Position numbers and translations under genes: made by a program. From assembly GCA_902514875.1 (NCBI GenBank), contig CABXSY010000006.1, forward strand, positions 1 through 61,566: 61,566 bases of DNA. The letters are read 5' to 3'. Origin of the DNA: an uncultured Alphaproteobacteria bacterium (GTDB lineage Bacteria; Pseudomonadota; Alphaproteobacteria; HIMB59; GCA-002718135). Under the pieces are notes generated by a model, which searched no databases, was not told where the DNA came from, and saw nothing but the letters and a program-made list of their open reading frames with translations. Shown here one piece after another: positions 13,552-32,743 of this stretch (its first letter is position 1; each line of letters starts with the position of its first letter).

Positions 13552-14676
13552 ATGTTTAAAAGTGTTGATATTTTTGAAGCTAGAAAAGAGGGTTACAAAA
13601 CATACAGAGTACCCGGGATAACAGTTTCAAAAAATGATGTAGTTTTAGCAACTGCTGAAAGTAGACCTATTTCAGGAGGTGATTGGGATTTCAATGATGT
13701 GTTTATGAGAAGGAGTTTAGATCAAGCTGAAACTTTTCTTGAGAGACAGCTTGTAGCCAATCATAAAGATATAGGTGATGGCCCTATAAGTAATTTCGTA
13801 ATGATACCAGATATGAATACTGGAAGAATTATTGCTGTTTTTTGTTGGAAGTATTCAAGAGTATTTCGAAAGTATAGTGATGACGATGGGGCAACCTGGA
13901 GTGATCCAGAAGAAATTACAGAGACATTTAATAGATTCCACAATGATTATGATTGGAAAGTTTGTGCTACTGGTCCAGGACATGGAATACAATTAAATAA
14001 TGGTAGAATGATTATACCTGTATGGTTATCTGATGGCTCTGGAACTGAAATGGGTAAAGGTCATTTAGGTCATAGACCTTCTATTATCACTTCTATTCAT
14101 AGTGACGATAATGGTATTACCTGGGAAAGAGGAGATATTGTTTGTCGCCATGATGATAATATTGATGGCACTATTCTAATTAATCCAAGTGAAACTATCC
14201 CCGTTCAATTAGAAGATTCCTCAGTGATGTTAAACATCAGAAGTGAGTCAGAAATTGATAGACGCTTGATAGCTATAAGTCCTGATGGATCTTCAAATTG
14301 GAAAATTAGAGGATTTGATAATGCTTTATTAGAACCAGTCTGTATGGCCAGTATTTTAAAAAGCAATCAACCATCAGAAAATGAATTCAAGGATATAATT
14401 TTTATAAATCCAGATAATTTAGAAAATACAATGATACCTGAAGGACGTAATTTGCGCCACGATAGAAAAAGATTATCTGCAAAGTTAAGTTTTGATGATG
14501 CAAAGACCTGGCCTGTAAATAAAGTTATTGAAGAGGGGCCGTCTGGATATAGTGATGTAGCTCAATTAAGATCAGGAGTATTTATATGTATTTATGAATG
14601 TGAGATTGTAGAAAGAATCTGTGATGATAAATATGTCAGAGTTACGAAATTTGATAAAAACTGGCTTACAAGTTGA
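13552..14676 (+). CDS. Exo-alpha-sialidase family protein, canonical N-terminal motif, no signal peptide
   Basis: YRVPGI (RIP-like motif), ATAESRPISGGDWDFNDVFMRRS, Asp boxes YSDDDGATWS and SDDNGITWE. Confidence 0.85.
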   Translation: MFKSVDIFEARKEGYKTYRVPGITVSKNDVVLATAESRPISGGDWDFNDVFMRRSLDQAETFLERQLVANHKDIGDGPISNFVMIPDMNTGRIIAVFCWKYSRVFRKYSDDDGATWSDPEEITETFNRFHNDYDWKVCATGPGHGIQLNNGRMIIPVWLSDGSGTEMGKGHLGHRPSIITSIHSDDNGITWERGDIVCRHDDNIDGTILINPSETIPVQLEDSSVMLNIRSESEIDRRLIAISPDGSSNWKIRGFDNALLEPVCMASILKSNQPSENEFKDIIFINPDNLENTMIPEGRNLRHDRKRLSAKLSFDDAKTWPVNKVIEEGPSGYSDVAQLRSGVFICIYECEIVERICDDKYVRVTKFDKNWLTS

Positions 14677-18116: not shown

Positions 18117-19596
18117 AAATATTTTTCTTTCAGGCATATATCATGAAACACATACATTTTTAGGTGAGCCAACTACCTTAAAAGATTTTATTATTTATAA
18201 TGATCAAGAAATAATTAATGAAAACACTGGCAATGGATCTCCAACAGATGGTTTCATAGAATATGCTTCTCAGCAAAAATGGAATATTATTCCAGGCATT
18301 CAAATGTCAGCCAGGCCATCTGGTACAGTAGACGAAGAAACTGAAAATTATTTTAAAACAAATTTCTTTGAAAAGTTAAAATCTTCTAGCAATAACATAG
18401 ATGCAATTTTTTTAGTTCTACATGGAGCTATGGTTAGTAAAAATCACGATGATTTTGAGGGTGATTTTCTTAGGGATATTCAAATTTTTTTATCTAAAGA
18501 AAATATTTCTATTCCAGTTGTGGCAGTTTTAGATTTACATGCAAATGTTTCAGAAAGCATGATTAAGAATAGTACTTGTGTCTATGCGTATAGAAAAAAC
18601 CCACACAGTGATTCAAGAGAAACGGCAGTAAAAGCTGCATCAATTTTAAATGATCTTTTTTTAGATACAAAGGTAGAACAAATACATTTAGGAACAAATT
18701 ATATTCTTCCCCCAACTGGTGTTGGAACAGCAAATGATCCTATGAAAATAATTTTAGAAGAAGCTTTAAGGATAGAGAAAAACGACCCTGAGATTATTTG
18801 TATCAATGTTATGGCAGGATATTCATATGCAGATATTCCGGAATGTGGTTTTAGTATAAATTGTTGTACAAGAGGAAATACTAGTCAGGCAAAAAAATAC
18901 CTCGATAACTTAGTAACTATACTCGAAGCAAAGATTAAAAATGGTTATCCAAAAGAAAATTCATTAGATGAAGCTCTAAAAGAAATTGATAAAATTGCTG
19001 ATATTAAAAAGCCAATATTATTAATTGAACCAGCTGATAATATTGGAGGTGGAACACCAGGTGATGCAACTGATTTATTAGATCGCTTATTACAAACTAA
19101 TCATACTGGCATTGTTGCAATTATAAATGATCCTGAAGCAGCAGATGCTTGTCACAAAGCTCAGATAAATGATGAAATACAATTAAATATTGGTGCAAAA
19201 TTTGATCTATTTCATGGTAAGCCTATCTTAATAAAAGCAAAATTAGACAAAATTTCTGATGGAGCCTTTGAGCTTGAAAATAAAAAATCTCACTTAGCTT
19301 CAATGATGGGAACAAAAATTAATATGGGTCCGTCAGCTGTATTAAAAAATGATCAATTAACCTTATTGTTAACATCAATTAAAACACCACCAATGGATTT
19401 AGGTCAACTAACTTCCCAGGGTATTAATCCTAGAGATGCAAAATTAATAATAATCAAAGCTGCTGTATCTCACAAGGATGCTTACGACCCAATTGCATCT
19501 CAGAGTTTTTATATTGATAGCCAAGGTCTTTGTACAAGTAATTTAAAAAGATTGCCTTTTAAAAAAATTGGAAATAAAATTATATCTTTAGATTAG
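18109..19596 (+). CDS. M81 family metallopeptidase (MlrC-like)
   Basis: GIYHETHTF, FLVLHGAMVSKNHDDFEGDFL, VLDLHANVS, PADNIGGGTPGDATDLL. Confidence 0.87.
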   Translation: MSKNIFLSGIYHETHTFLGEPTTLKDFIIYNDQEIINENTGNGSPTDGFIEYASQQKWNIIPGIQMSARPSGTVDEETENYFKTNFFEKLKSSSNNIDAIFLVLHGAMVSKNHDDFEGDFLRDIQIFLSKENISIPVVAVLDLHANVSESMIKNSTCVYAYRKNPHSDSRETAVKAASILNDLFLDTKVEQIHLGTNYILPPTGVGTANDPMKIILEEALRIEKNDPEIICINVMAGYSYADIPECGFSINCCTRGNTSQAKKYLDNLVTILEAKIKNGYPKENSLDEALKEIDKIADIKKPILLIEPADNIGGGTPGDATDLLDRLLQTNHTGIVAIINDPEAADACHKAQINDEIQLNIGAKFDLFHGKPILIKAKLDKISDGAFELENKKSHLASMMGTKINMGPSAVLKNDQLTLLLTSIKTPPMDLGQLTSQGINPRDAKLIIIKAAVSHKDAYDPIASQSFYIDSQGLCTSNLKRLPFKKIGNKIISLD

Positions 19597-20912
19597 TTTA
19601 ATCGTTTAAAACCATTATGTGCAATAGGGCCTTCTAATAAATCCATAATATTTCTTCCATCCTCGCACTCTTTTATCGTTTGAAAAATAGGACGAATATT
19701 TTCAATGTAACCATCAATGATGTCTTTTGTGTGTGCAGTACAAACATAGACTGCAGTTGCAGCAAGATAACCTTTTTTAAGCATTTCTTGAGTAATAAAT
19801 GTTTTATAGGCCAATGCATTTTCACTTTTAAATGAAAATGTTGTCAGTGCCGCTAATCCACTAATAGTAATTGGAAGATCAAATTCTTTAGACAACTTCA
19901 TCCACTCACTATTTACGTATTCACCAATTTTTGTAATTTTTTCCCATGATTTTTCTTTATCCATAACTTTTAGTGTGGCAAGACCAGCACTAGATCCAAT
20001 TCGTTCAGTCCAAAAGGTGCTACTTATAAAAGATTTTTCTGCTGCTTGCATAACCTCTCTTTTACCAAGGACTGCAGTTACAGCATATCCATTTCCAAGA
20101 GCTTTTCCAAACATTGCGACGTCAGGCTCAACATCATAAAGCATATGTAAACCACCATAATTTTTTCTAAATCCTGATGTACATTCATCAAAAACTAAAA
20201 CAATATTATTATCATTTGCTAATTTTCTTACTCGTTGCAAAAAATTATTTTCTGGTTCTTTGTTTCGGTAAACTTCCATTTTGATAACACCAATATTTTT
20301 AGTTTTGACTAAGTTTTCTAGTTTATCAAAATTATTATACTCAAACGGATATACACTTCCTTTGAGATTTTGTGGTACACCATGAGGATCTAAACCTGGT
20401 AGCAGGTGACCATCTAACCCTTTTGAGTCAGATAAATTTGAAGCTAAATACCAATCATGCCAGCCATGATATCCGCAAAATGCTACATTATCTCTTCCAG
20501 ATGCAGCTCTTGAAAGACGAATAGCGACTGAATTAGCTTCACCTCCTGATCTTGCAAATCTAGCCATATCAGCCCATGGATGTAGCTCAACTAATCTTTC
20601 CGTGAGTTCAACTTCTTCTGGAGCATTAAGAGAGGACATATTACCATTTCCGACTGTTTCTTTGACAGCTTCATCGACTTCTGGATGACTATAGCCAAGT
20701 GAATTAGTTCCTGGCATCATTAAAGTATCTATATATTTATTTCCATCGAGATCCCATACTTCACAACCTCTTGTTTTAGTAAAATAAGCAGGCCAATGTT
20801 CAGGTAAAAACATTTCAGGTCTTTTTGATAAAAGCATATTACCACCAGCAACAATTTGCTTTGCTTTTGAATATAATTTTTGTCCTTTTCCCATTCTAAT
20901 TAACCTATGCAA
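19593..20912 (-). CDS. Class III aminotransferase (glutamate-1-semialdehyde aminomutase-like)
   Basis: SGGEANSVAIRLSRAASGRDNVAFCGYHGWHDW, VLVFDECTSGFRKNYGG, MFGKALGNGYAVTAVLGK. Confidence 0.87.
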   Translation of the reverse strand: MHRLIRMGKGQKLYSKAKQIVAGGNMLLSKRPEMFLPEHWPAYFTKTRGCEVWDLDGNKYIDTLMMPGTNSLGYSHPEVDEAVKETVGNGNMSSLNAPEEVELTERLVELHPWADMARFARSGGEANSVAIRLSRAASGRDNVAFCGYHGWHDWYLASNLSDSKGLDGHLLPGLDPHGVPQNLKGSVYPFEYNNFDKLENLVKTKNIGVIKMEVYRNKEPENNFLQRVRKLANDNNIVLVFDECTSGFRKNYGGLHMLYDVEPDVAMFGKALGNGYAVTAVLGKREVMQAAEKSFISSTFWTERIGSSAGLATLKVMDKEKSWEKITKIGEYVNSEWMKLSKEFDLPITISGLAALTTFSFKSENALAYKTFITQEMLKKGYLAATAVYVCTAHTKDIIDGYIENIRPIFQTIKECEDGRNIMDLLEGPIAHNGFKRLN

Positions 20913-20944
20913 TTTTCATTAAAAGCACAATCAGTTTCTTGTGT

Positions 20945-21826
20945 TTATAGCAAAACACCCATTTTTGCTGCTTTTACTCCAAGAGATGACTTTACTACTT
21001 TTACGTGAAACAATTTAGGTTCTTTTTTCAAATTTTTTTTTACGAGCTCTACATAACCTTGTGCCATTCCAATACTCCCACCAAGTATAATTATATCTAT
21101 ATCAAATATAGCTTTCAAATTTGCACACAGTTCTGAGACAGATTTGGCAGATAGATCGATTATTTCTTTTGCCCATTTTTTATTTTGTAGACTAAGCTTA
21201 AAAATTTCTTTAGCACTAATATTTTTATGACCTTTTTGTCTAGCAATTTTACTCATTGCTTTACCAGAAGCGATACTTTCAAAAGTTCCAATTCTACCAC
21301 TCCCACATTTTGTTTTTGCTAACGTTGAAGTTGTAAATCCTAAATGTCCTGCTAATCCATTTTCTGAGAGAAGAGGTATATTATTTAAAATTACACCAAC
21401 TCCTATACCACTTGAAATTGTAATATATCCCAAACGTTTGTATTTATAACCTTTTCCATAATTTGCTTCTCCTAAAGCTGCAGCAGTTGCATCATTTATT
21501 ATTGTAGCAGCTGTATTAAATTTTTTTTCTATAAGCTTTTTAAGAGGTATTTTGAAAGTTCCTAAATTTTCTTTATTTACTGGGTACCAATTTCCGTATT
21601 GGTCAACCCTACCTGTAATAGCAATACCTATTATTTTAGATTTAGATATGTTTAAGTTTTTAATATTTTTTTCAATTTGTTGAATGTAATTATTTGCTAT
21701 TTTATTTATTGAAGTTGGCTCAGTAATAGTTTTTTTAAACTTTCCTTTAATTATTTGAGATACTGATATCTTAGTTGCTCCAAAATCAATTGCGATACCT
21801 GATTTGTTAAATATTTTTTTATTCAT
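20945..21826 (-). CDS. nanK: ROK-family kinase, predicted N-acetylmannosamine kinase
   Basis: IAIDFGATKISVSQI, GIAITGRVD, NDATAAALGEANYGKGY, TISSGIGVGV, downstream of nanE. Confidence 0.82.
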   Translation of the reverse strand: MNKKIFNKSGIAIDFGATKISVSQIIKGKFKKTITEPTSINKIANNYIQQIEKNIKNLNISKSKIIGIAITGRVDQYGNWYPVNKENLGTFKIPLKKLIEKKFNTAATIINDATAAALGEANYGKGYKYKRLGYITISSGIGVGVILNNIPLLSENGLAGHLGFTTSTLAKTKCGSGRIGTFESIASGKAMSKIARQKGHKNISAKEIFKLSLQNKKWAKEIIDLSAKSVSELCANLKAIFDIDIIILGGSIGMAQGYVELVKKNLKKEPKLFHVKVVKSSLGVKAAKMGVLL

Positions 21827-21827
21827 T

Positions 21828-22502
21828 TTAATTTTTAATTTTTTTCACAAACCAACTCGTAATATTATCAATACGCGTAATAGCACTTCCAATTGTAACT
21901 GCATCTGCTCCTGCTTGTATAGCTTTCTTTGCAAGCTCTGGAGAGTTGTAACGCCCTTCAGCCATTACAAAGCAATTAAGTTTTTTAAATTCTTTAACTA
22001 ATTTTATATTTGGTTTATCCGTATCTTTCACTTTTTTACCAACATAGCCGGCAAGTGTTGTTCCAATGATATCCGCACCCTCTAAAACAGCATTTTTAGC
22101 ATCATCTAGATTTGAACAGTCTGCCATAGCTAAACGATTTGCTTTTTTAATTTTTAAAATAATTTCTTTTGTTGGAAAAGGTCTTTTCCTCTTTGTGGCA
22201 TCATAAGCTATTATATCTGCACCACTATTAATAATTTTATCAACATCCTTTAAGAGAGGCGTAATTCTAACTTTATAGTTATCTAAGTCATTTTTTATTA
22301 TGCCAATGATTGGTAAAGAAATATTTTTTTTGACTGCTCGTATATTTTTTTCTCCTTCAATTCGTACACCACCACAACCTCCTATAATTGCAGCTTTTGC
22401 CATTGAAACAACAATAGAAGTCTTGTCTTGAGGCCCACCCTCATTAGGTTGACATGATACAATAATTTTATTTTTTAATTTTTTTAAAATATTTTTTTTC
22501 AC
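21828..22502 (-). CDS. nanE: N-acylglucosamine-6-phosphate 2-epimerase
   Basis: AAIIGGCGGVRIEGEKNIRAVK, PIIGIIKND, ADIIAYDATKRKRP, VMAEGRYNSPELAKKAIQAGADAVTIGSAITR. Confidence 0.9.
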   Translation of the reverse strand: MKKNILKKLKNKIIVSCQPNEGGPQDKTSIVVSMAKAAIIGGCGGVRIEGEKNIRAVKKNISLPIIGIIKNDLDNYKVRITPLLKDVDKIINSGADIIAYDATKRKRPFPTKEIILKIKKANRLAMADCSNLDDAKNAVLEGADIIGTTLAGYVGKKVKDTDKPNIKLVKEFKKLNCFVMAEGRYNSPELAKKAIQAGADAVTIGSAITRIDNITSWFVKKIKN

Positions 22503-22510
22503 AAAGTTAA

Positions 22511-23440
22511 TTATATTGCTTTTAAAAATTTTATTTCTGAAAGATCATTTTCCGACATTAATTTTTTTAAATCATCTTTTATTCCCTTTTCTATCTCTGT
22601 ATTGACAATACTTGAAAAAGGTTTCCTTACATACCCTGAATCAATTCCCATCCAACTTAATCCCATTTTAATAAATGGATAACCTGATTTTTTTAAAGCA
22701 TATAAAATGATCATATTGACTTTATCTTGTAATTTTTTTGCCTCAACAACATTACCATTTTTCATATTTTCAAAAATTCCTACAAACATTTCTGGCATTA
22801 AATTATAAAATGATCCAATCATACCATCAGCACCTGATATCAGACCAGACACAGCCATTTCATCCATGCCAGAATAAATTTTAAAATATGCTCCTATTTC
22901 TTTTTTTATTTTCTCAAAATTAAAATGAGTTGCTGCCGTATATTTAACTCCTTTAATATTATCTATAGCGGCCAGTCTTTTTAACATATCAATGTCCATC
23001 AAATTTGCGTGACTAATGTTATATATAATAATTGGCAAATGTGAGGATTGAGCTATGTCACTATAATAGTTATAAATCTCTTCATTAGAAAAATTGTAAT
23101 AGAAAGGTGGCAATGCTGATAATGCATCGACTCCAGCATGAGTGGCATATTTTGCTAGATCAGTTGTAATTTTAGTTCCTATAGATCCAACATGTGCAAT
23201 AACAGGAACTCTTCCATTTACTTCCTCAACAATAATATCGAGCACTTCTTTTTTTTCTTCTGGTGACATTAAAAAAGTTTCACCTGTACTACCAGTTACG
23301 TACAAGCCATTTACATTTTCATCAATCAAATGATTTATTATTTTTCTTAAACCTTCCTTGTTAATAGTTTCATCTTTATTAATGGATGTGATCATAGCAG
23401 GCATAACACCATTCAGATCTTTTGGATCGTATTTAGTCAT
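22511..23440 (-). CDS. nanA: N-acetylneuraminate lyase
   Basis: NGLYVTGSTGETFLMSPEEK, IKGVKYTAATHFNFE, YSGMDEM, GADGMIGSFYNLMPE. Confidence 0.87.
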   Translation of the reverse strand: MTKYDPKDLNGVMPAMITSINKDETINKEGLRKIINHLIDENVNGLYVTGSTGETFLMSPEEKKEVLDIIVEEVNGRVPVIAHVGSIGTKITTDLAKYATHAGVDALSALPPFYYNFSNEEIYNYYSDIAQSSHLPIIIYNISHANLMDIDMLKRLAAIDNIKGVKYTAATHFNFEKIKKEIGAYFKIYSGMDEMAVSGLISGADGMIGSFYNLMPEMFVGIFENMKNGNVVEAKKLQDKVNMIILYALKKSGYPFIKMGLSWMGIDSGYVRKPFSSIVNTEIEKGIKDDLKKLMSENDLSEIKFLKAI

Positions 23441-24462
23441 TACTTACTTATTTCAGGTAAATCGATCAAATGGCAGGATGCATAATGTTCATTACCATTT
23501 GTAGAATATTTTTTTAATGTTGGAACTTCAGTTTTACAAATATCTTTTGCTTTAGGACAACGAGGATGAAAAGGACAACCCTTAGGTGGATTTACTGGAC
23601 TTGGTACATCTCCTTCTAAAACAATTCTCTTAGTTTTCTTATCAAGATCGGCAACTGGTATTGCTGATATTAAAGCTTCAGAGTAGGGGTGAAGAGTATT
23701 TTTATAAAGATCTTCAGAATCACAAAGTTCTACAATTCTTCCTAAATACATAACAGCAATTCTATCACATAAATATTCAGTCACACTTAGATCATGCGTA
23801 ATAAATAGATAAGTTAAATTATTATCTTTTTTTAGCTGCATTAATAATTGTAAAACTTGAGCCTGAATTGAAACATCTAATGCACTGACGGCCTCATCAC
23901 ATACAATCAATTCAGGATCTAAACATAAAGCTCTTACAATTCCAATTCGTTGTCTTTGACCTCCCGAAAACTCATGAGGATATCGATCCATATATTCTCT
24001 ACGCATATTTACTGCTTCTAATAGGTCACCTATTATTTTTCTTCTTTCTTCTTTTGAATTAACTCCAAATTTTTTTAAAGGATCTTGAAGAGATCCAAAA
24101 ATAGTAAAAGAAGGATTAAGAGAGGAATGTGGATCTTGAAAAACAATCTGAAGTTTTTTTCGAAAAGGATCCATATCTTTTTTTTCTAAAGATGTTAGTT
24201 CTGTTTCATCATTTTCTTTTGAAACATATGTTACTTTACCATTTGTTGGCTCAACCAATCTTAAGATTGCTTTACCAAGCGTAGTTTTACCACAACCACT
24301 TTCTCCGGCCAGACCTAACACTTCACCGCGATAAATATCTAAATCAACTCCGTCGACCGCCATTACATGTCCAACAGTTCGATTAAAGACGCCTGCTTTT
24401 ACGGGAAAGTAGACTTTAAAGTCGCGTAATTTAAGAATCTCTTTTTTCATTATACTTTTCAA
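23440..24462 (-). CDS. Oligopeptide-type ABC transporter ATPase (DppF/OppF-like)
   Basis: GESGCGKTTLGKAILRL, FSGGQRQRIGIVRAL, CDEAVSALDVSIQAQ, GCPFHPRCPKA. Confidence 0.93.
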   Translation of the reverse strand: MKSIMKKEILKLRDFKVYFPVKAGVFNRTVGHVMAVDGVDLDIYRGEVLGLAGESGCGKTTLGKAILRLVEPTNGKVTYVSKENDETELTSLEKKDMDPFRKKLQIVFQDPHSSLNPSFTIFGSLQDPLKKFGVNSKEERRKIIGDLLEAVNMRREYMDRYPHEFSGGQRQRIGIVRALCLDPELIVCDEAVSALDVSIQAQVLQLLMQLKKDNNLTYLFITHDLSVTEYLCDRIAVMYLGRIVELCDSEDLYKNTLHPYSEALISAIPVADLDKKTKRIVLEGDVPSPVNPPKGCPFHPRCPKAKDICKTEVPTLKKYSTNGNEHYASCHLIDLPEISK

Positions 24463-25459
24463 AAAATTGTTCGTACTTATGACATCTTATTTCATGAGTT
24501 TTATTTATTTGTATAATTTCAGGCATCACATCACAACTTTCTGTTTGCCAATTACAACGTGGTGCAAACTGGCATCCAATAGGCCTATTATATGGATCAG
24601 GTGTTGATCCTTTTATAGGATTTATATCTTGATTCTTTCCTCTACCAAGAACTGGAACAGATTCTAATAATGCTTTTGTGTAGGGGTGTGTAGGTCGTCT
24701 TAAAACATCATCAGCAGTACCTGCTTCGACAATATTTCCCATATACATAACGGCAACATTGTCCGCTAATTCAGCAACAACACCCATATCATGGGTAATG
24801 AGAATGATGGCCGTATCATTTTCCTCTTTAAGTTTTTCCATCAATTCAAATATTTGAGCTTGAATTGTAACATCTAGAGCTGTTGTAGGTTCATCGGCAA
24901 TTAATATTTTTGGATTACATGCCATCGCCATTGCAATCATAGCTCTTTGTCTCATCCCACCAGAATAACTATGCGGATATTCATCTACTCTTTTTTCAGG
25001 CAACGGAATCCCCATATCATTCAAAAGAGAAATACTTTTTTCTCTTATTTCTTTTCGATTAAGGCTAGTGTGATATTTTAAATTTTCACTTATTTGAAAA
25101 CCAACTGTATAAACTGGATTTAACGCAGTCATTGGATCTTGAAAAATCATTGCGATATCAGAACCTCTGATATTTCTCATTTCTTTTCCATTCTTTTCTA
25201 ACTTTTCAATATTGACGGTTTTATCATCCTTACGAAAAATAATTTCACCTTCTTCAATTCTTGATAAAGTTGGAAGAAGTTGCATAATAGTTGCTGCAGT
25301 CACACTTTTTCCGCATCCACTTTCTCCAACAATACAAAGTGTTTTACCTTTTTCAACATCAAAGGAAACACCGTTCACTGCTTTATTACATCTATTATTA
25401 GTGTAGAAGAATGTTTTGAGATTTTTAACTGATAAAGCTATATTATTTTTATCTGTCAT
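24431..25459 (-). CDS. Oligopeptide-type ABC transporter ATPase (DppD/OppD-like)
   Basis: GESGCGKSVTAATIMQLL, YSGGMRQRAMIAMAM, ADEPTTALDVTIQAQ, IGCQFAPRCNW. Confidence 0.93.
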   Translation of the reverse strand: MTDKNNIALSVKNLKTFFYTNNRCNKAVNGVSFDVEKGKTLCIVGESGCGKSVTAATIMQLLPTLSRIEEGEIIFRKDDKTVNIEKLEKNGKEMRNIRGSDIAMIFQDPMTALNPVYTVGFQISENLKYHTSLNRKEIREKSISLLNDMGIPLPEKRVDEYPHSYSGGMRQRAMIAMAMACNPKILIADEPTTALDVTIQAQIFELMEKLKEENDTAIILITHDMGVVAELADNVAVMYMGNIVEAGTADDVLRRPTHPYTKALLESVPVLGRGKNQDINPIKGSTPDPYNRPIGCQFAPRCNWQTESCDVMPEIIQINKTHEIRCHKYEQFFEKYNEKRDS

Positions 25460-25460
25460 A

Positions 25461-26375
25461 CTATCCTTGTTGCGATGGATCTGTTGAATCTCTCAGACCA
25501 TCTCCTATAAAGTTAACACAAAGTACAAATACTGAAATTACTATTCCAACCGGTCCCCACATCCACCAATAGTTTTGTAAAACTAAAATATCTTGAGCAA
25601 CATTGAGAATATTTCCCCATGTTGGAATATTTAAGGGGACTCCTAGTCCTAGGAAACTTAAACCAGCTTCTGTTAAAATAAACATAGCCGTCGAAAGAGT
25701 TATATTAACCATTATAGGACTTAAAGCATTTGGTAACATATGTTTGTAGCAAATGGTAAAGGTCGATAGCCCAAAACTTCTCAGAGCTTGAACATATTCT
25801 TCCTCACGTAATGATAACATTCGCGCTCTAGCAAGTCTATACATCCCTCCCCATCCTGTAAGAATAAATATTGCCATAAGATTAAATAAACTTTGACCCG
25901 TGATTGATACCAACAATAAAACTAATATTATTTGAGGGAACGACATAAATATTTCAGAAACCCTAAGAGCAATTACATCTATCCAGCCACCTTTATAACC
26001 TGCATAGCAACCAACAGCGATGCCAACTACTGCAGATAATATAGCGCTTCCTAAACCGATAAAAATTGAAACTCTTCCACCAAATAAAACTCTCGTAAAA
26101 ACATCACGCCCTGTACTATCTGTACCAAACCAATGATCAAAAGATGGCGCTTGCCTCATTGAGCGAAGATCAACACGCATAGGATCGTATGGTGACAGTA
26201 ATGGTGCAAATAAAGAGGCTAAAATAATTATAGTAAAAATAATTAGACCAACAACTGCTAGGCGGTTATTCAAAAATTTACTGACTATCCTGCTTCTTTT
26301 TTTGACAGAAAATGTTTTTTCTTCTTCACGTTTTCTTATTTGATCAAATTTTTTATCTAAAGATGTTTGTGCCAT
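25461..26375 (-). CDS. ABC transporter permease (DppC-like)
   Basis: NRLAVVGLIIFTIIILASLFAPLLSPYDP, HWFGTDSTGRDVFTRVLFGGRVS, FLGLGVPLNIPTWGNIL. Confidence 0.93.
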   Translation of the reverse strand: MAQTSLDKKFDQIRKREEEKTFSVKKRSRIVSKFLNNRLAVVGLIIFTIIILASLFAPLLSPYDPMRVDLRSMRQAPSFDHWFGTDSTGRDVFTRVLFGGRVSIFIGLGSAILSAVVGIAVGCYAGYKGGWIDVIALRVSEIFMSFPQIILVLLLVSITGQSLFNLMAIFILTGWGGMYRLARARMLSLREEEYVQALRSFGLSTFTICYKHMLPNALSPIMVNITLSTAMFILTEAGLSFLGLGVPLNIPTWGNILNVAQDILVLQNYWWMWGPVGIVISVFVLCVNFIGDGLRDSTDPSQQG

Positions 26376-27340
26376 TAGTTTTTACCCAATCTTACCCTTG
26401 GATCAATTAATGCTGTCAATACATCTATAACTAAGCTTGCTGTAAGAACTACAAATACATACATTAAAGATATTGTCATAACTAATGGATAATCTGATCC
26501 ACGAACAGATCGAATGAACATGCTACCAATTCCAGGCCATTGGTAAACCTGTTCTATAATAGTTGAACCACCAATAAGTAAAGGTAAACGAAAGCCAATT
26601 AAAACTACGACTGGTGTTAAAGCAACTCTAAATCCATGTAAGATATTTACTCTCCACTCTGGCATGCCTTTTGATCGAGCTGTTGTAATAAATTCTCTTG
26701 CAAGAACATCTAACATAGATGAACGTGCATAACGCATTGCTCCAGCGGTCATCATTAATGCTAATACTAAGGATGGGAGAACTATATTTGGAATTCTATC
26801 CCACACTGTTTCGTAATGTGGCATGAGTCTTCCTCCAACAGGAAGCCATTTTAATTCAATAGCAAATAATAGAATTGCAACTAACCCAAAGAAAAATTCT
26901 GGTATTGAAACTCCAGCCATTCCAGCAACTGTAAGAGAATTATCAGTTCCAGAACCTCTTTTAAGTGCGCTAATAACACCTAAAGAACAACCTAAAATGG
27001 TTGAGAAAAACAAAGCAACCAATGATAGTTCCAAAGTAGCGGGAACTGTTTTTGCCATTATCGTAGAAATAGCAACTCCACCAGCCATGGAGTAACCCAT
27101 GTCCCCTTGAACCATACTGGTTAACCAAATCCAATATCTTGTTATGAAACTTTGATTAAGGCCGTAAGCTTCACGCATTGCATCAAGTTGTTCAGCAGTT
27201 ATTGTTGAAGCAAGTTCCGGGCTAATCATATGTGATACAGCATCACCTGGAGATAATTCTAATCCTGAATAAACAAGAAAACTTATGACAAAAAGCATGG
27301 GAAAGAAAATAAACAAGCGTTGAGCAATGTAAGTTGTCAT
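26375..27340 (-). CDS. ABC transporter permease (DppB-like)
   Basis: YIAQRLFIFFPMLFVISFLVYSGLELSPGD, FITTARSKGMPEWRVNILHGFRVALTPVV. Confidence 0.93.
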   Translation of the reverse strand: MTTYIAQRLFIFFPMLFVISFLVYSGLELSPGDAVSHMISPELASTITAEQLDAMREAYGLNQSFITRYWIWLTSMVQGDMGYSMAGGVAISTIMAKTVPATLELSLVALFFSTILGCSLGVISALKRGSGTDNSLTVAGMAGVSIPEFFFGLVAILLFAIELKWLPVGGRLMPHYETVWDRIPNIVLPSLVLALMMTAGAMRYARSSMLDVLAREFITTARSKGMPEWRVNILHGFRVALTPVVVLIGFRLPLLIGGSTIIEQVYQWPGIGSMFIRSVRGSDYPLVMTISLMYVFVVLTASLVIDVLTALIDPRVRLGKN

Positions 27341-27365: not shown

Positions 27366-27391
27366 AAAGCTGAGGCTAATGCCTCAGCTTT
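27366..27391 (-). promoter_or_regulatory. Strong hairpin (attenuator/terminator-like) between SBP and permease genes
   Basis: AAAGCTGAGGC-loop-GCCTCAGCTTT, 11-bp perfect stem followed on the minus strand by TTTTTATTTTTATT. Confidence 0.78.
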
Positions 27392-27405: not shown

Positions 27406-29013
27406 CTATGGTTTTGGATACTGCATAATCCACATCATACGAGTATAAGGGATATCAACAGCTTTAGTTCCCATGTTATCCATGCCATCTAATGCAGCAA
27501 CATCAGCTACGTTTTTAGTAAAGCCGTAGTCCATTTTTCCTGCAGCAGCATTTTTAATTAAGTTACCATCACCATCATAACTTGGGTAAGCAATGATATC
27601 AAAACCAGCTTTACCGCCATGATAGCCGTCAAAAGGTTCGAACTTCGCAAAGTCGTTCATTTTAACTTCAGTAATTTTGAATGCTCCAGATCCTATTGGC
27701 ATTTGCCAGAAATCACTTTGTTGGAATTTCAAAGGATCAACATCCCCTAATAAGTGCTTAGGTAAAATAGCAAATTGAGTGAAAGTAGTTAAGATGTTAG
27801 GATCAATTTTTGTTAATTCTAACGAAATAACTCTATCTTCAATATTGTATTTAATACCAGAAACATCATTAGTTGAGCCGTCTTTAAATGCATCAGCACC
27901 TTTGATTGATCCAACTGTGTTTCCAATTAGGGCGTGCATTTGAGGTGCTTTCATAGCAGTACGAATACTCCATGCCACATCCTCAACAGTTACATCGTTT
28001 CCATCATGGAAAGTAAGACCATCTTTAAGTTTAAATGATAAACTTAAACCATCAGAAGATAACTCATAGCTTTCACAAGCTGAACATCCAACTGGTTGTA
28101 ACGCACCATCAGCAACTAAAAGTCTATCGAATACAACTTTGTTGTGTATCCATAAACCTAGGTTGTACCAAGGTTGTTCAAAGAATTCAACTGGACCAGT
28201 GTTAGTTTGTAATGTACCACCACTTACGTTCCAATCAGTAATTCCCCAGTTATAGTTATACTGAGCGTTACCATATGATCCACCATTTCTATCAACTTTA
28301 TTACTCTCATAGATGAATAATTTTTGATAGTATAATGGACAAATGTTAACTTGCTCCATTTGATATTCTTGTATTTCAAAGAAAGCAGGTTTTAGGACTT
28401 CCGGATCTGCACTTGAATTAATATTTTCAATTAGTGCATCCATTTTTGGATCACCAGGTGTTTGTGGGTTAAGACCTGTTTTAAAAGTATTGTAATACTC
28501 TTGCATTGCAATTGCTGCACGAGCACCATAACCTAAGTCATAGTCAACAGCAGCTGGTCCATTCACACCATCATCAGGAACTGAATTAAGTTGCGCACCA
28601 ACATCACCTTGTAATAGACGGTAAGTCATTTTCACACCAACATCAGCAAAGTAAGCTTGAATTGCTGCCATGAAGTCAGCTGTTAGCTGATCACCATAGT
28701 AAAATACCATATCAAGTTCTCTATTTGAGTCCCAATTAGCTTCTGCTAACAGTTGACGAGCCTTTTCAGGATTGTAACTGTAATCAGGTAAATTTGGAGA
28801 CTTCATTGGACCGTTTGGTAATAAACTATCCGCCATTATGATTTGATCTTCAAATAATGTTTCACCGATTGTTTTCATGTCGATAGCCATACATAGAGCT
28901 TGTCTGACACGAGGATCGGATAATTGGTTACTATTTGTAGGTTGAGCAGATACTGATGAAATAAACATCAGATGAGCCAACACTGCAACTATAACCACAT
29001 ATAGTTTTTTCAT
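27406..29013 (-). CDS. Family-5 (Dpp/Sat-like) solute-binding protein with apparent circular permutation
   Basis: Start MKKLYVVIVAVLAHLMFISSVSA at 29013 with AGGAGG RBS. Family-5 C-terminal half (LSDPRVRQALCMAIDMKTI...PEKARQLLAEA) comes first, then the N-terminal half (GGTLQTNTGPVEFFEQPW...SYELSSDGLSLSFKLKDGLTFHDGNDVTVEDVAWSIR...ILPKHLLGD...GSGAFKI). Confidence 0.88.
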   Translation of the reverse strand: MKKLYVVIVAVLAHLMFISSVSAQPTNSNQLSDPRVRQALCMAIDMKTIGETLFEDQIIMADSLLPNGPMKSPNLPDYSYNPEKARQLLAEANWDSNRELDMVFYYGDQLTADFMAAIQAYFADVGVKMTYRLLQGDVGAQLNSVPDDGVNGPAAVDYDLGYGARAAIAMQEYYNTFKTGLNPQTPGDPKMDALIENINSSADPEVLKPAFFEIQEYQMEQVNICPLYYQKLFIYESNKVDRNGGSYGNAQYNYNWGITDWNVSGGTLQTNTGPVEFFEQPWYNLGLWIHNKVVFDRLLVADGALQPVGCSACESYELSSDGLSLSFKLKDGLTFHDGNDVTVEDVAWSIRTAMKAPQMHALIGNTVGSIKGADAFKDGSTNDVSGIKYNIEDRVISLELTKIDPNILTTFTQFAILPKHLLGDVDPLKFQQSDFWQMPIGSGAFKITEVKMNDFAKFEPFDGYHGGKAGFDIIAYPSYDGDGNLIKNAAAGKMDYGFTKNVADVAALDGMDNMGTKAVDIPYTRMMWIMQYPKP

Positions 29014-29145
29014 ATTTCCTCCTCTTGAGTAAAATATACTACTAGCTAGCATATAATTTCCATATAAACATAATGTTAACCTTTAAACAAGGCATAAAAT
29101 TACACAGATATAAAATGATTAACTTATTGAAATTATTAATAAAAA

Positions 29146-30188: not shown

Positions 30189-31757
30189 TTAACTCAGCTT
30201 AAATTCTTTTTTAAATTCACTAATTGTTAATACCTCATTAACTGGTTTGTCCCAACGAATACGGTGTATTCTTGGGAATCTCATAGCTACACCTGACTTA
30301 TGTCTAGTACTCGGAAATACATCATCAAAAGCTACTTCCAATATAATTTCTTTTTTTACTTCTCTTACGGGGCCAAATTTATTGATAGTATTGTTCCTAA
30401 TGAATTTATCTAATACTAATAATTCTTTGTCAGTGTAACCGGAATACGCCTTTCCTATTGGAACTAATTCATTTTCTTTCCAAACACCAAAAGTAAAATC
30501 AGAATAATACGATGATCTTTTGCCGTGCCCTCGTTGTGCATACATTAAAATTGCATCAACTAGTTTTGGATTTTTTTTCCATTTATACCAATAACCCTTT
30601 TTTCTTCCTGGTAAATATTCACTATTTTTAAGTTTAATCATGACACCTTCATTTAAATCACCATGAAAATTATTTTTATATTTAGTTAATTCTTCCCAAG
30701 TTGAAAAATTAATGATGAAAGATAAATCAATTTGATTAGTTTTATTTTCTTTTTGAAATTTTTCTAAATATTTTCTTCTTTCAAAAAGAGATAATTTTCT
30801 TAAATCTTTTCCTTTATAAAAAAGGATATCATAAGCTCGTATGAAAACAGGAAACTTTTTTTGAAGATCTTTCGATGCTTTTTTTCTATTTAACCTTTGT
30901 TGTAGATCATTAAAACCTGACGGCTTAAAACTTCTACCTGCAAGTAATTCCCCGTCAATAACAGCATCACCTTTTGTAGTTTCAATTATTTCTGGGAATG
31001 CAGATGATATATTATCACCTGTTCTTGAATATAGTGAAACACTCTTTGATGCAACCATAAGCTGAACTCTAATTCCATCCCATTTATATTCTGCTTGAAA
31101 TTCATTTGCGTCTAATCTTTTAAAATCTTTTTCCTCATCAATAGGATTAGCAAGCATCATGGGATGAAATAATTTTCTAAAATCTATTTTTGGCTTTGAT
31201 GTTTCATTTTTTAACCATTGAAATAAATTTTCATAAGGAAATTCTAGACCATGCCAAATTTCTTCAATCTCATTTACAGATTTGTTATATAGATCAGCTA
31301 GAGCAGTTTTTACTAATCTTTCAGAGACTCCAATTCGCAGCCCACCCGTACAAATCTTTATTAGTGTCCACCTTTCATTATTAGATAGTCGACTCAAAAT
31401 TTTACTAAACTCTGTATTAATTTCAGACTTTTCAATTTTTTTTATATTTTCTATTAAGTTAGACAAATTTTCTGACTTACCTTCTTTTTTTGTTGGCCAA
31501 ATTAATGATATTGTTTCAGCTAAATCCCCAACATAGTCGTATGAGTAATCAAATAAATGTTGATCTACTTGTTCATAGACAAGCTCTCTGAGTTTAGATG
31601 CTTTAATAAATTGAAATGATAGTTGGTTAGATAAAATTGCAAGAGCATATGCACGGTTGATATCAAGTGTTTTAAAATAATCTTGAAGTAATTTAATTTT
31701 AGTATTTCGACTTGGTGTTAAAATCAAATTGTGAAGTAAAGAAGAAAATTTTTTCAT
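30189..31757 (-). CDS. ATP-dependent DNA ligase
   Basis: EYKWDGIRVQLM (adenylation Lys motif), GDAVIDGELLAG, EGVMIKLKNSEYLPGRKKGYWYKWK; adjacent to ligase-associated exonuclease/helicase genes. Confidence 0.93.
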   Translation of the reverse strand: MKKFSSLLHNLILTPSRNTKIKLLQDYFKTLDINRAYALAILSNQLSFQFIKASKLRELVYEQVDQHLFDYSYDYVGDLAETISLIWPTKKEGKSENLSNLIENIKKIEKSEINTEFSKILSRLSNNERWTLIKICTGGLRIGVSERLVKTALADLYNKSVNEIEEIWHGLEFPYENLFQWLKNETSKPKIDFRKLFHPMMLANPIDEEKDFKRLDANEFQAEYKWDGIRVQLMVASKSVSLYSRTGDNISSAFPEIIETTKGDAVIDGELLAGRSFKPSGFNDLQQRLNRKKASKDLQKKFPVFIRAYDILFYKGKDLRKLSLFERRKYLEKFQKENKTNQIDLSFIINFSTWEELTKYKNNFHGDLNEGVMIKLKNSEYLPGRKKGYWYKWKKNPKLVDAILMYAQRGHGKRSSYYSDFTFGVWKENELVPIGKAYSGYTDKELLVLDKFIRNNTINKFGPVREVKKEIILEVAFDDVFPSTRHKSGVAMRFPRIHRIRWDKPVNEVLTISEFKKEFKLS

Positions 31758-32743
31758 TCAATTTCCTCATCACTTCTTCCTTGGATGGATAGGGGCTTTG
31801 AAACAAGATTTTGTTGCTTACAATAATAAACCAATGCATCTTCCTGACCATGTGTAATAAGAATATTTTTTGCTTTTGATTTATTAATTGTATCTAGTAA
31901 TTCATTCCAATCGCTATGATCACTAATAACTAATGGAAGTTCAATACCTTGTTGTTTTGCTCTTTGCTTAACTGTCATCCATCCACTTGCCATGCAAATA
32001 ATAGGGTTAGGAAACCGTCTTGACCAACGGTCTTTTAACGCTGATGGAGGGGCAATAATTATTTTGCCTTCATAAAAATTCTTATCTTTTGAAGAAACTT
32101 TTTCAAATTTTCCAATATTAATTTTTTCTTTTGAATAATATTCACACAACTTTTTTAGAGATCCATGAATATAAATTGTTTTATTATAATTCTGCTGGCG
32201 TAAAAGATTCATTACTCTTTGTGCTTTGCCAAGTGCATAAGCACCAACGATATGACAATTATGTTTATTTATTTTTACTGATTGAATAAGTTTTTGAATT
32301 TCATCGTTGGGATTTGGATGTTGAAATATGGGTAAGCCAAATGTTGCTTCAGTAATTAAAGTATCACATTTAATAAGTTTGAAATTTTTACACGTTTCAT
32401 CTTTTCCTACTTTATAATCACCTGTGATGACTAAACGATGATTATCTTTCTCAATTAATACTTGAGCACTCCCCAAAATATGTCCCGCAGGGTAGAGTGT
32501 AAAATTAAAGTTTTTAATCGAGTATTTTTGACCGTATCTAAGAGTTGTAAATTTCTTCGCACATTTATCTCCGTAGCGAATTTTCATTATGTCTATGGTC
32601 TGCCTAGTGGCAATAACATGGTTATGTCCAAATCGAGCATGATCTGCGTGACCATGTGTAATAATTGCTGTTTTTTTCGGCAATATTGGATCTATATGTA
32701 GATTTATATCTTTGATAAATAGTTGATGGTTAATGAAATCCAT
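31754..32743 (-). CDS. Ligase-associated DNA exonuclease (MBL-fold)
   Basis: ITHGHADHARFGH, YPAGHILGSAQVLIE, VITGDYKVGKDETC, SGWMTVKQRAKQQGIELPLVISDHSDWNEL. Confidence 0.9.
   Translation of the reverse strand: MDFINHQLFIKDINLHIDPILPKKTAIITHGHADHARFGHNHVIATRQTIDIMKIRYGDKCAKKFTTLRYGQKYSIKNFNFTLYPAGHILGSAQVLIEKDNHRLVITGDYKVGKDETCKNFKLIKCDTLITEATFGLPIFQHPNPNDEIQKLIQSVKINKHNCHIVGAYALGKAQRVMNLLRQQNYNKTIYIHGSLKKLCEYYSKEKINIGKFEKVSSKDKNFYEGKIIIAPPSALKDRWSRRFPNPIICMASGWMTVKQRAKQQGIELPLVISDHSDWNELLDTINKSKAKNILITHGQEDALVYYCKQQNLVSKPLSIQGRSDEEIE

Follow-up and report, generated by a model that had tools for sequence, protein, structure and literature searches.

Does the reading frame at positions 29013-27406 on the reverse strand of the window (the whole stretch of DNA analysed, 61,566 nucleotides long) encode a binding protein of an ABC importer in which the two halves of the chain have exchanged places, and, if so, is this arrangement genuine, does it serve a working protein, and which ligand may that protein capture? 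A preliminary description made from the sequence had proposed a circularly permuted family-5 solute-binding protein (SBP) in an operon of the sialic-acid type. Here we follow the gene from its block order through its conservation, operon and relatives to a model of its topology and function.

Block order of the binding protein

The frame is uninterrupted, specifies 535 residues and belongs to family 5 (SBP_bac_5, cluster C). Translation begins at the ATG at 29013, just 3' of the ribosome-binding site GAGGAGG (29018-29024, reverse strand), of which GGAGG is kept in orthologues, and ends at the stop codon at 27406-27408; start and end are identical in 10 orthologues. A longer frame of 548 residues is possible from 29052, but the orthologues use the start at 29013 with its GGAGG site. 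A signal peptide, MKKLYVVIVAVLAHLMFISSVSA (28945-29013, reverse strand), is predicted by eye to be cleaved after VSA and is conserved in the orthologues, so that the mature protein would begin at about 28944. It is followed on the same strand by a normally C-terminal block of 238 residues (28225-28938; PF00496 positions 209-326), which comprises lobe II together with the last segment of lobe I, and then by the normally N-terminal block of 272 residues (27409-28224; PF00496 positions 7-204), which comprises lobe I and ends in YPKP-stop at what is usually a mid-protein position. At the fusion (28223-28226, reverse strand) the former C-terminus (TDWNV) passes without a linker into the former mature N-terminus (SGGT), the spanning sequence being NAQYNYNWGITDWNVSGGTLQ.... 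The open frame, secretion signal and ribosome-binding site noted in the preliminary description are thus all borne out, as is its placement of the N-type block from 28224; its C-type block starts at 28938 and not at about 28941.

The native protein matches PF00496 with 165.2 bits (gathering score 32.4), the only family over the Pfam cut-off, and does so in reversed order: profile positions 7-204 align with its second half and 209-326 with its first. The collinear alignment that would have spoken for an ordinary protein was sought and is not there. Once the blocks are swapped in silico, a single match remains, of residues 50-383 to profile positions 7-326 with 176.1 bits; the halves alone score 95.2 and 73.5 bits. 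Searches of the PDB with phmmer give the same picture, the order of the matches (e.g., to 8upi, AppA 1xoc and DppA) being reversed for the native protein and collinear for the reordered one. The latter aligns end to end with standard-order relatives, SGGT falling at the mature N-terminus typical of the family and TDWNV at its typical C-terminus, so that exchanging the blocks yields an ordinary family member, as had been proposed. The best NCBIfam match is Opp4A with 138.5 bits, far under its cut-off of 650. Hence, the frame encodes a circularly permuted family-5 (PF00496, cluster C) binding protein.

Distribution, conservation and selection

Scanning the species genomes of GTDB yielded 28 loci with the permuted SBP at 79-98% identity, from single cells and several metagenome-assembled genomes (MAGs); one of these loci is in the record AG-337-I02, a name that PMC8692485 gives to a genus of order HIMB59 (AEGEAN-169 marine group), which is very probably the genus concerned here. 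Within the family of the window the gene is present in 26 of 110 genomes, all of one genus, 24 of them with a full-length copy and two with fragments at contig ends. An orthologue of dppB occurs in exactly the same 26 genomes. The permuted order is found in every orthologue having both halves, and the standard order in all sampled distant relatives having both; among the records of reading frames, 75 are permuted and 28 (distant relatives) standard, a tally that counts many repeat fetches of the same loci. The other family-5 proteins in the window's own genome have the standard order. A standard-order homologue at this locus was looked for across the 110 family genomes, and none was found in the genus; viral contigs yielded no copy of the permuted SBP. 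Two operon contigs, NYXO01000056.1 ('Euryarchaeota archaeon ARS96') and one from a 'Gammaproteobacteria' MAG, are binned to unrelated taxa, which probably reflects binning contamination in public MAGs.

Across the gene as a whole, pairwise dN/dS is 0.05-0.14 (dS reaches about 1.4); for each block, and for the surroundings of the fusion, it stays under 0.3 in all pairs tested. The reading frame is open in every complete copy. The permuted SBP is thus under strong purifying selection, fusion region included. Many carriers are single-cell genomes, in which amplification can create chimeras; the permuted order might on this ground be an artefact of assembly or amplification at 28224. The identical junction recurs, however, in dozens of independent contigs, metagenome bins among them, at 79-98% identity, and purifying selection spans it, which refutes an assembly chimera and leaves the artefact with a negligible probability. 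Equally negligible is the probability of a decaying gene, for which only the unusual architecture speaks: all complete copies are open, dN/dS is about 0.1, and signal peptide, ribosome-binding site, stem-loop (see below) and operon are all conserved, so that the selection observed refutes this reading as well. Taken together with the signal peptide (by eye) and the adjoining Dpp/Opp-type permeases and ATPases, these results support the earlier impression of a functional gene, and the SBP is very probably a natural circular permutation that works.

Operon context and indications for the ligand

The genes downstream, all on the reverse strand, form a cluster whose synteny is conserved among the orthologous loci. 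A stem-loop with a U-rich tail (27366-27391; z -5.5) lies between the SBP gene and dppB, and its pairing is kept despite sequence changes in five further loci (L021-L025). It is probably a partial terminator or transcript stabiliser, and probably sets an excess of the binding protein over the permeases. There follow a DppB/OppB-type permease (26375-27340), an Opp4C-like permease (25461-26375; 336.6 bits against an NCBIfam cut-off of 350), and ATPases of the DppD/OppD (24431-25459) and DppF/OppF (23440-24462) types, assigned like the first permease by NCBIfam. Further downstream lie (i) a NanA-like lyase of the DHDPS family (22511-23440), which exceeds the NCBIfam cut-off for N-acetylneuraminate lyase (PRK04147), (ii) the N-acetylmannosamine-6-phosphate 2-epimerase NanE (21828-22502), likewise over its NCBIfam cut-off, (iii) a NanK-like ROK kinase (20945-21826), which with 210 bits stays under the curated cut-off, and (iv) a class-III aminotransferase (19593-20912), the last gene of the cluster.

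Two types of this operon exist in the genus: nanA-nanE-nanK-aminotransferase in the window and branch A, and nanA-aminotransferase in branch B. The observation covers positions 19593-23440 of the window and the loci L021, L024, L029 and L135; the operon devoid of nanE and nanK is seen in L021, L024 and L029, which carry divergent copies of the SBP, and not in L022. Linkage of the importer to nanA, nanE and nanK together is accordingly a feature of the window and branch A, with nanA alone linked in branch B, while the aminotransferase is kept in both types and nanA is present wherever the contig extends to its position. At the level of genomes, nanE occurs in 24 of the 26 with a permuted SBP vs 3 of the 84 others (Fisher p = 8e-19, uncorrected for shared ancestry). 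The proposal of a sialic-acid-type operon thus stands as far as nanA is concerned and does not extend to nanE and nanK in one branch; the assignment to sialic acid is plausible.

Two other parts of the window deserve mention. A BNR-repeat (PF13088) sialidase-like protein is encoded on the forward strand at 13552-14676, flanked by an apparent pair of sugar ABC permease genes and by two dioxygenase genes, and could release sialic acid. On the reverse strand at 30189-32743, a DNA-ligase-like gene lies beside a metallo-beta-lactamase-like nuclease gene (both read by eye); in one branch of the genus this pair directly precedes the operon.

Relatives and origin

The best plasmid match of the window's Opp4C-like permease (42% identity) led to an operon on a Deinococcus plasmid, in which a standard-order family-5 SBP is accompanied by an exo-alpha-sialidase, NanM, a NanA-type lyase, NanE, a ROK kinase, two permeases and two ATPases. 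Trees of the N-half and of the C-half place the permuted clade beside the Deinococcus SBP and DHDPS-linked alphaproteobacterial SBPs, with weak to moderate SH-like support for this placement (0.35 and 0.78 for the half trees, 0.69 combined). The operon genes of the window, together with the sialic-acid operon of the standard-order SBP in this nearest clade, suggest sialic acid as the ligand, which we regard as likely. Two alphaproteobacterial loci (L146 and L147) carry a standard-order family-5 SBP gene, dppBC, a DHDPS-family gene and dppDF, and represent a form of this type of transporter that is coupled to a lyase.

The standard-order protein closest to the permuted SBP is only about 25% identical overall, and scans of the order, class, phylum and plasmids found no close standard-order parent clearly above about 35% identity; one of the contig scans used the query's own peptides, which a more distant parent would escape. 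Since permuted copies are confined to one genus and all sampled outgroups have the standard order, the permuted state is derived. A single origin from one standard-order gene appears most likely, and under the general model the gene would, most simply, have been duplicated in tandem and the copies fused, after which the outer halves were lost while the signal peptide was kept.

Lobe topology and a working model

SapA, a protein of cluster C, has a domain Ia made up of residues 35-68, 230-312 and 532-561, a domain Ib of residues 69-229 and a domain II of residues 313-531 (PMC8519434). Hence, lobe II is a single stretch inserted in lobe I, and the chain of a standard protein crosses twice between the lobes. 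In the NCBIfam SapA model, which has 547 positions, the permutation break falls at about position 303, and in DppA at about residue 270; sequence alignment thus places it at the first lobe crossing or within some ten residues of it. With the break at about this crossover, the interleaved lobes become consecutive, lobe II preceding lobe I, and are joined by one covalent crossing. As the natural N- and C-termini both belong to lobe I, fusing them would be structurally cheap. Structure prediction with AlphaFold2 was too weak to demonstrate closure of the permuted chain into the three-domain, two-lobe fold of cluster C, both with 12 close orthologues (pLDDT 42) and after the addition of partial standard SBPs, each one half long, taken from viral contigs (pLDDT 57); the Foldseek matches listed for the latter model are family-5 SBPs, over only about 220 columns within one block.

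From these data we infer the following picture of fold, binding, ligand and origin. The old chain ends, which both belong to lobe I, would have been joined and the chain opened at about the first crossing, which would turn lobe II into an N-terminal domain and lobe I into a C-terminal domain connected by a single covalent crossing. The new C-terminal strand, YTRMMWIMQYPKP, should pack in the place that the first crossing takes in a standard protein. The protein would still trap its ligand by Venus-flytrap closure and dock with DppBC; the ligand would be sialic acid (N-acetylneuraminate or a closely related compound), subsequently degraded by NanA, NanE and NanK. Overall, we consider it highly likely that the gene product is a natural circular permutation that serves the downstream DppBCDF-type importer, most likely for sialic acid.

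Three other readings bear on parts of this picture. A functional permuted SBP might bind another 2-keto-3-deoxy sugar acid, an aminosugar or a peptide instead of Neu5Ac, a ligand that the DHDPS-family lyase and the aminotransferase would then process: these two are the constant partners, the operons of L021, L024 and L029 lack nanE and nanK, and the related alphaproteobacterial clusters combine a family-5 SBP transporter with a DHDPS-family gene, with no nanE detected. Yet both NanA and NanE exceed curated cut-offs (for N-acetylneuraminate lyase and NanE), the Deinococcus sister operon is a full sialic-acid cluster, and the branch-B genomes G006 and G057, which harbour L024 and L029, respectively, have another nanE elsewhere (51-52% identical), located in G057 among amino-sugar genes that include a separate transporter (genes read by eye). 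We regard a ligand other than Neu5Ac as unlikely, though a serious contender. That two different SBP genes each contributed one half of the protein is quite improbable; rates do differ between the blocks (e.g., dN/dS 0.07 vs 0.17 in L024) and the half-trees are weakly resolved, but the same neighbouring clade appears in both trees, and the two halves are about equally near the same relatives (23 and 25% identity to Deinococcus, 26 and 29% to Cytobacillus), so that permutation of one gene fits better than a chimera of two. One covalent connection between the lobes instead of two would also permit a domain-swapped dimer or two cut, associating chains; with no linker at the fusion and no positive evidence for either assembly, we hold this to be very improbable.

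Relation to known binding proteins and significance

In the literature covered, one binding protein of an ABC importer is known to be circularly permuted in nature: TpMglB-2 (Tp0684) of Treponema pallidum and relatives, assigned to 'Type Ic / Cluster Bc', for which glucose binding and ligand-induced closing are reported to be retained on the basis of crystal structure and biophysics (PMC4990184). The permuted SBP of the window resembles TpMglB-2 in being a naturally permuted ABC binding protein kept in a clade. However, TpMglB-2 has the cluster B sugar-binding fold, whereas our SBP is of a different family, for which the larger cluster C fold is predicted, and the Pfam search did not detect homology of the cluster B sugar-binding kind (Type Ic / Cluster Bc). 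In TpMglB-2 the first three strands of lobe I are now C-terminal, and the lobes gain a fourth crossing; in our SBP, in contrast, the whole of lobe II has moved to the N-terminus and one crossing is opened. The Deinococcus SBP (CP058535, 3409-4941 of locus L145; also in D. ficus and D. psychrotolerans) shares Pfam family, kind of operon and nearest tree clade with the permuted protein, but has the standard order, is about 24% identical, and belongs to an operon with another gene order and regulator and with sialidase and NanM adjacent. The peptide-binding proteins Opp4A, AppA and DppA likewise share PF00496, with standard order and peptide ligands. SatABCD of Haemophilus ducreyi is a Dpp/Opp-type importer and is not known to be permuted. 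It is likewise an ABC importer for sialic acid with linkage to Nan clusters, and SatB has served as a search seed (PMC2693436).

A search of open-licence papers found no permuted family-5 or cluster C SBP, and the AEGEAN-169 genome paper (PMC10308909) contains no words starting with neuramin- or permut-. The preliminary statement that no natural permutation was known in this family therefore stands within the open-licence literature; among ABC binding proteins in general, TpMglB-2 is such a case. As judged from that literature, the permuted SBP would be the first natural permutation in the large family-5 class. One might further speculate that the permutation is itself an adaptation, with a single covalent hinge altering opening and closing (or enabling a swapped-dimer assembly) so as to give distinct transport, and that it defines a 'cluster Cc' of family-5 binding proteins with permuted chains, but we consider this doubtful.

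Engineers of biosensors favour the circular permutation of binding proteins, but natural, selected cases are rare. The permuted SBP (i) allows one to ask, in a protein shaped by nature, how many covalent links between its lobes a Venus flytrap requires, and (ii) provides a ready scaffold for a probable sialic-acid sensor, its termini lying approximately at the lobe hinge. A pathway of sialic-acid uptake is also indicated in a marine alphaproteobacterial genus, where a plain family search would report a peptide transporter only.
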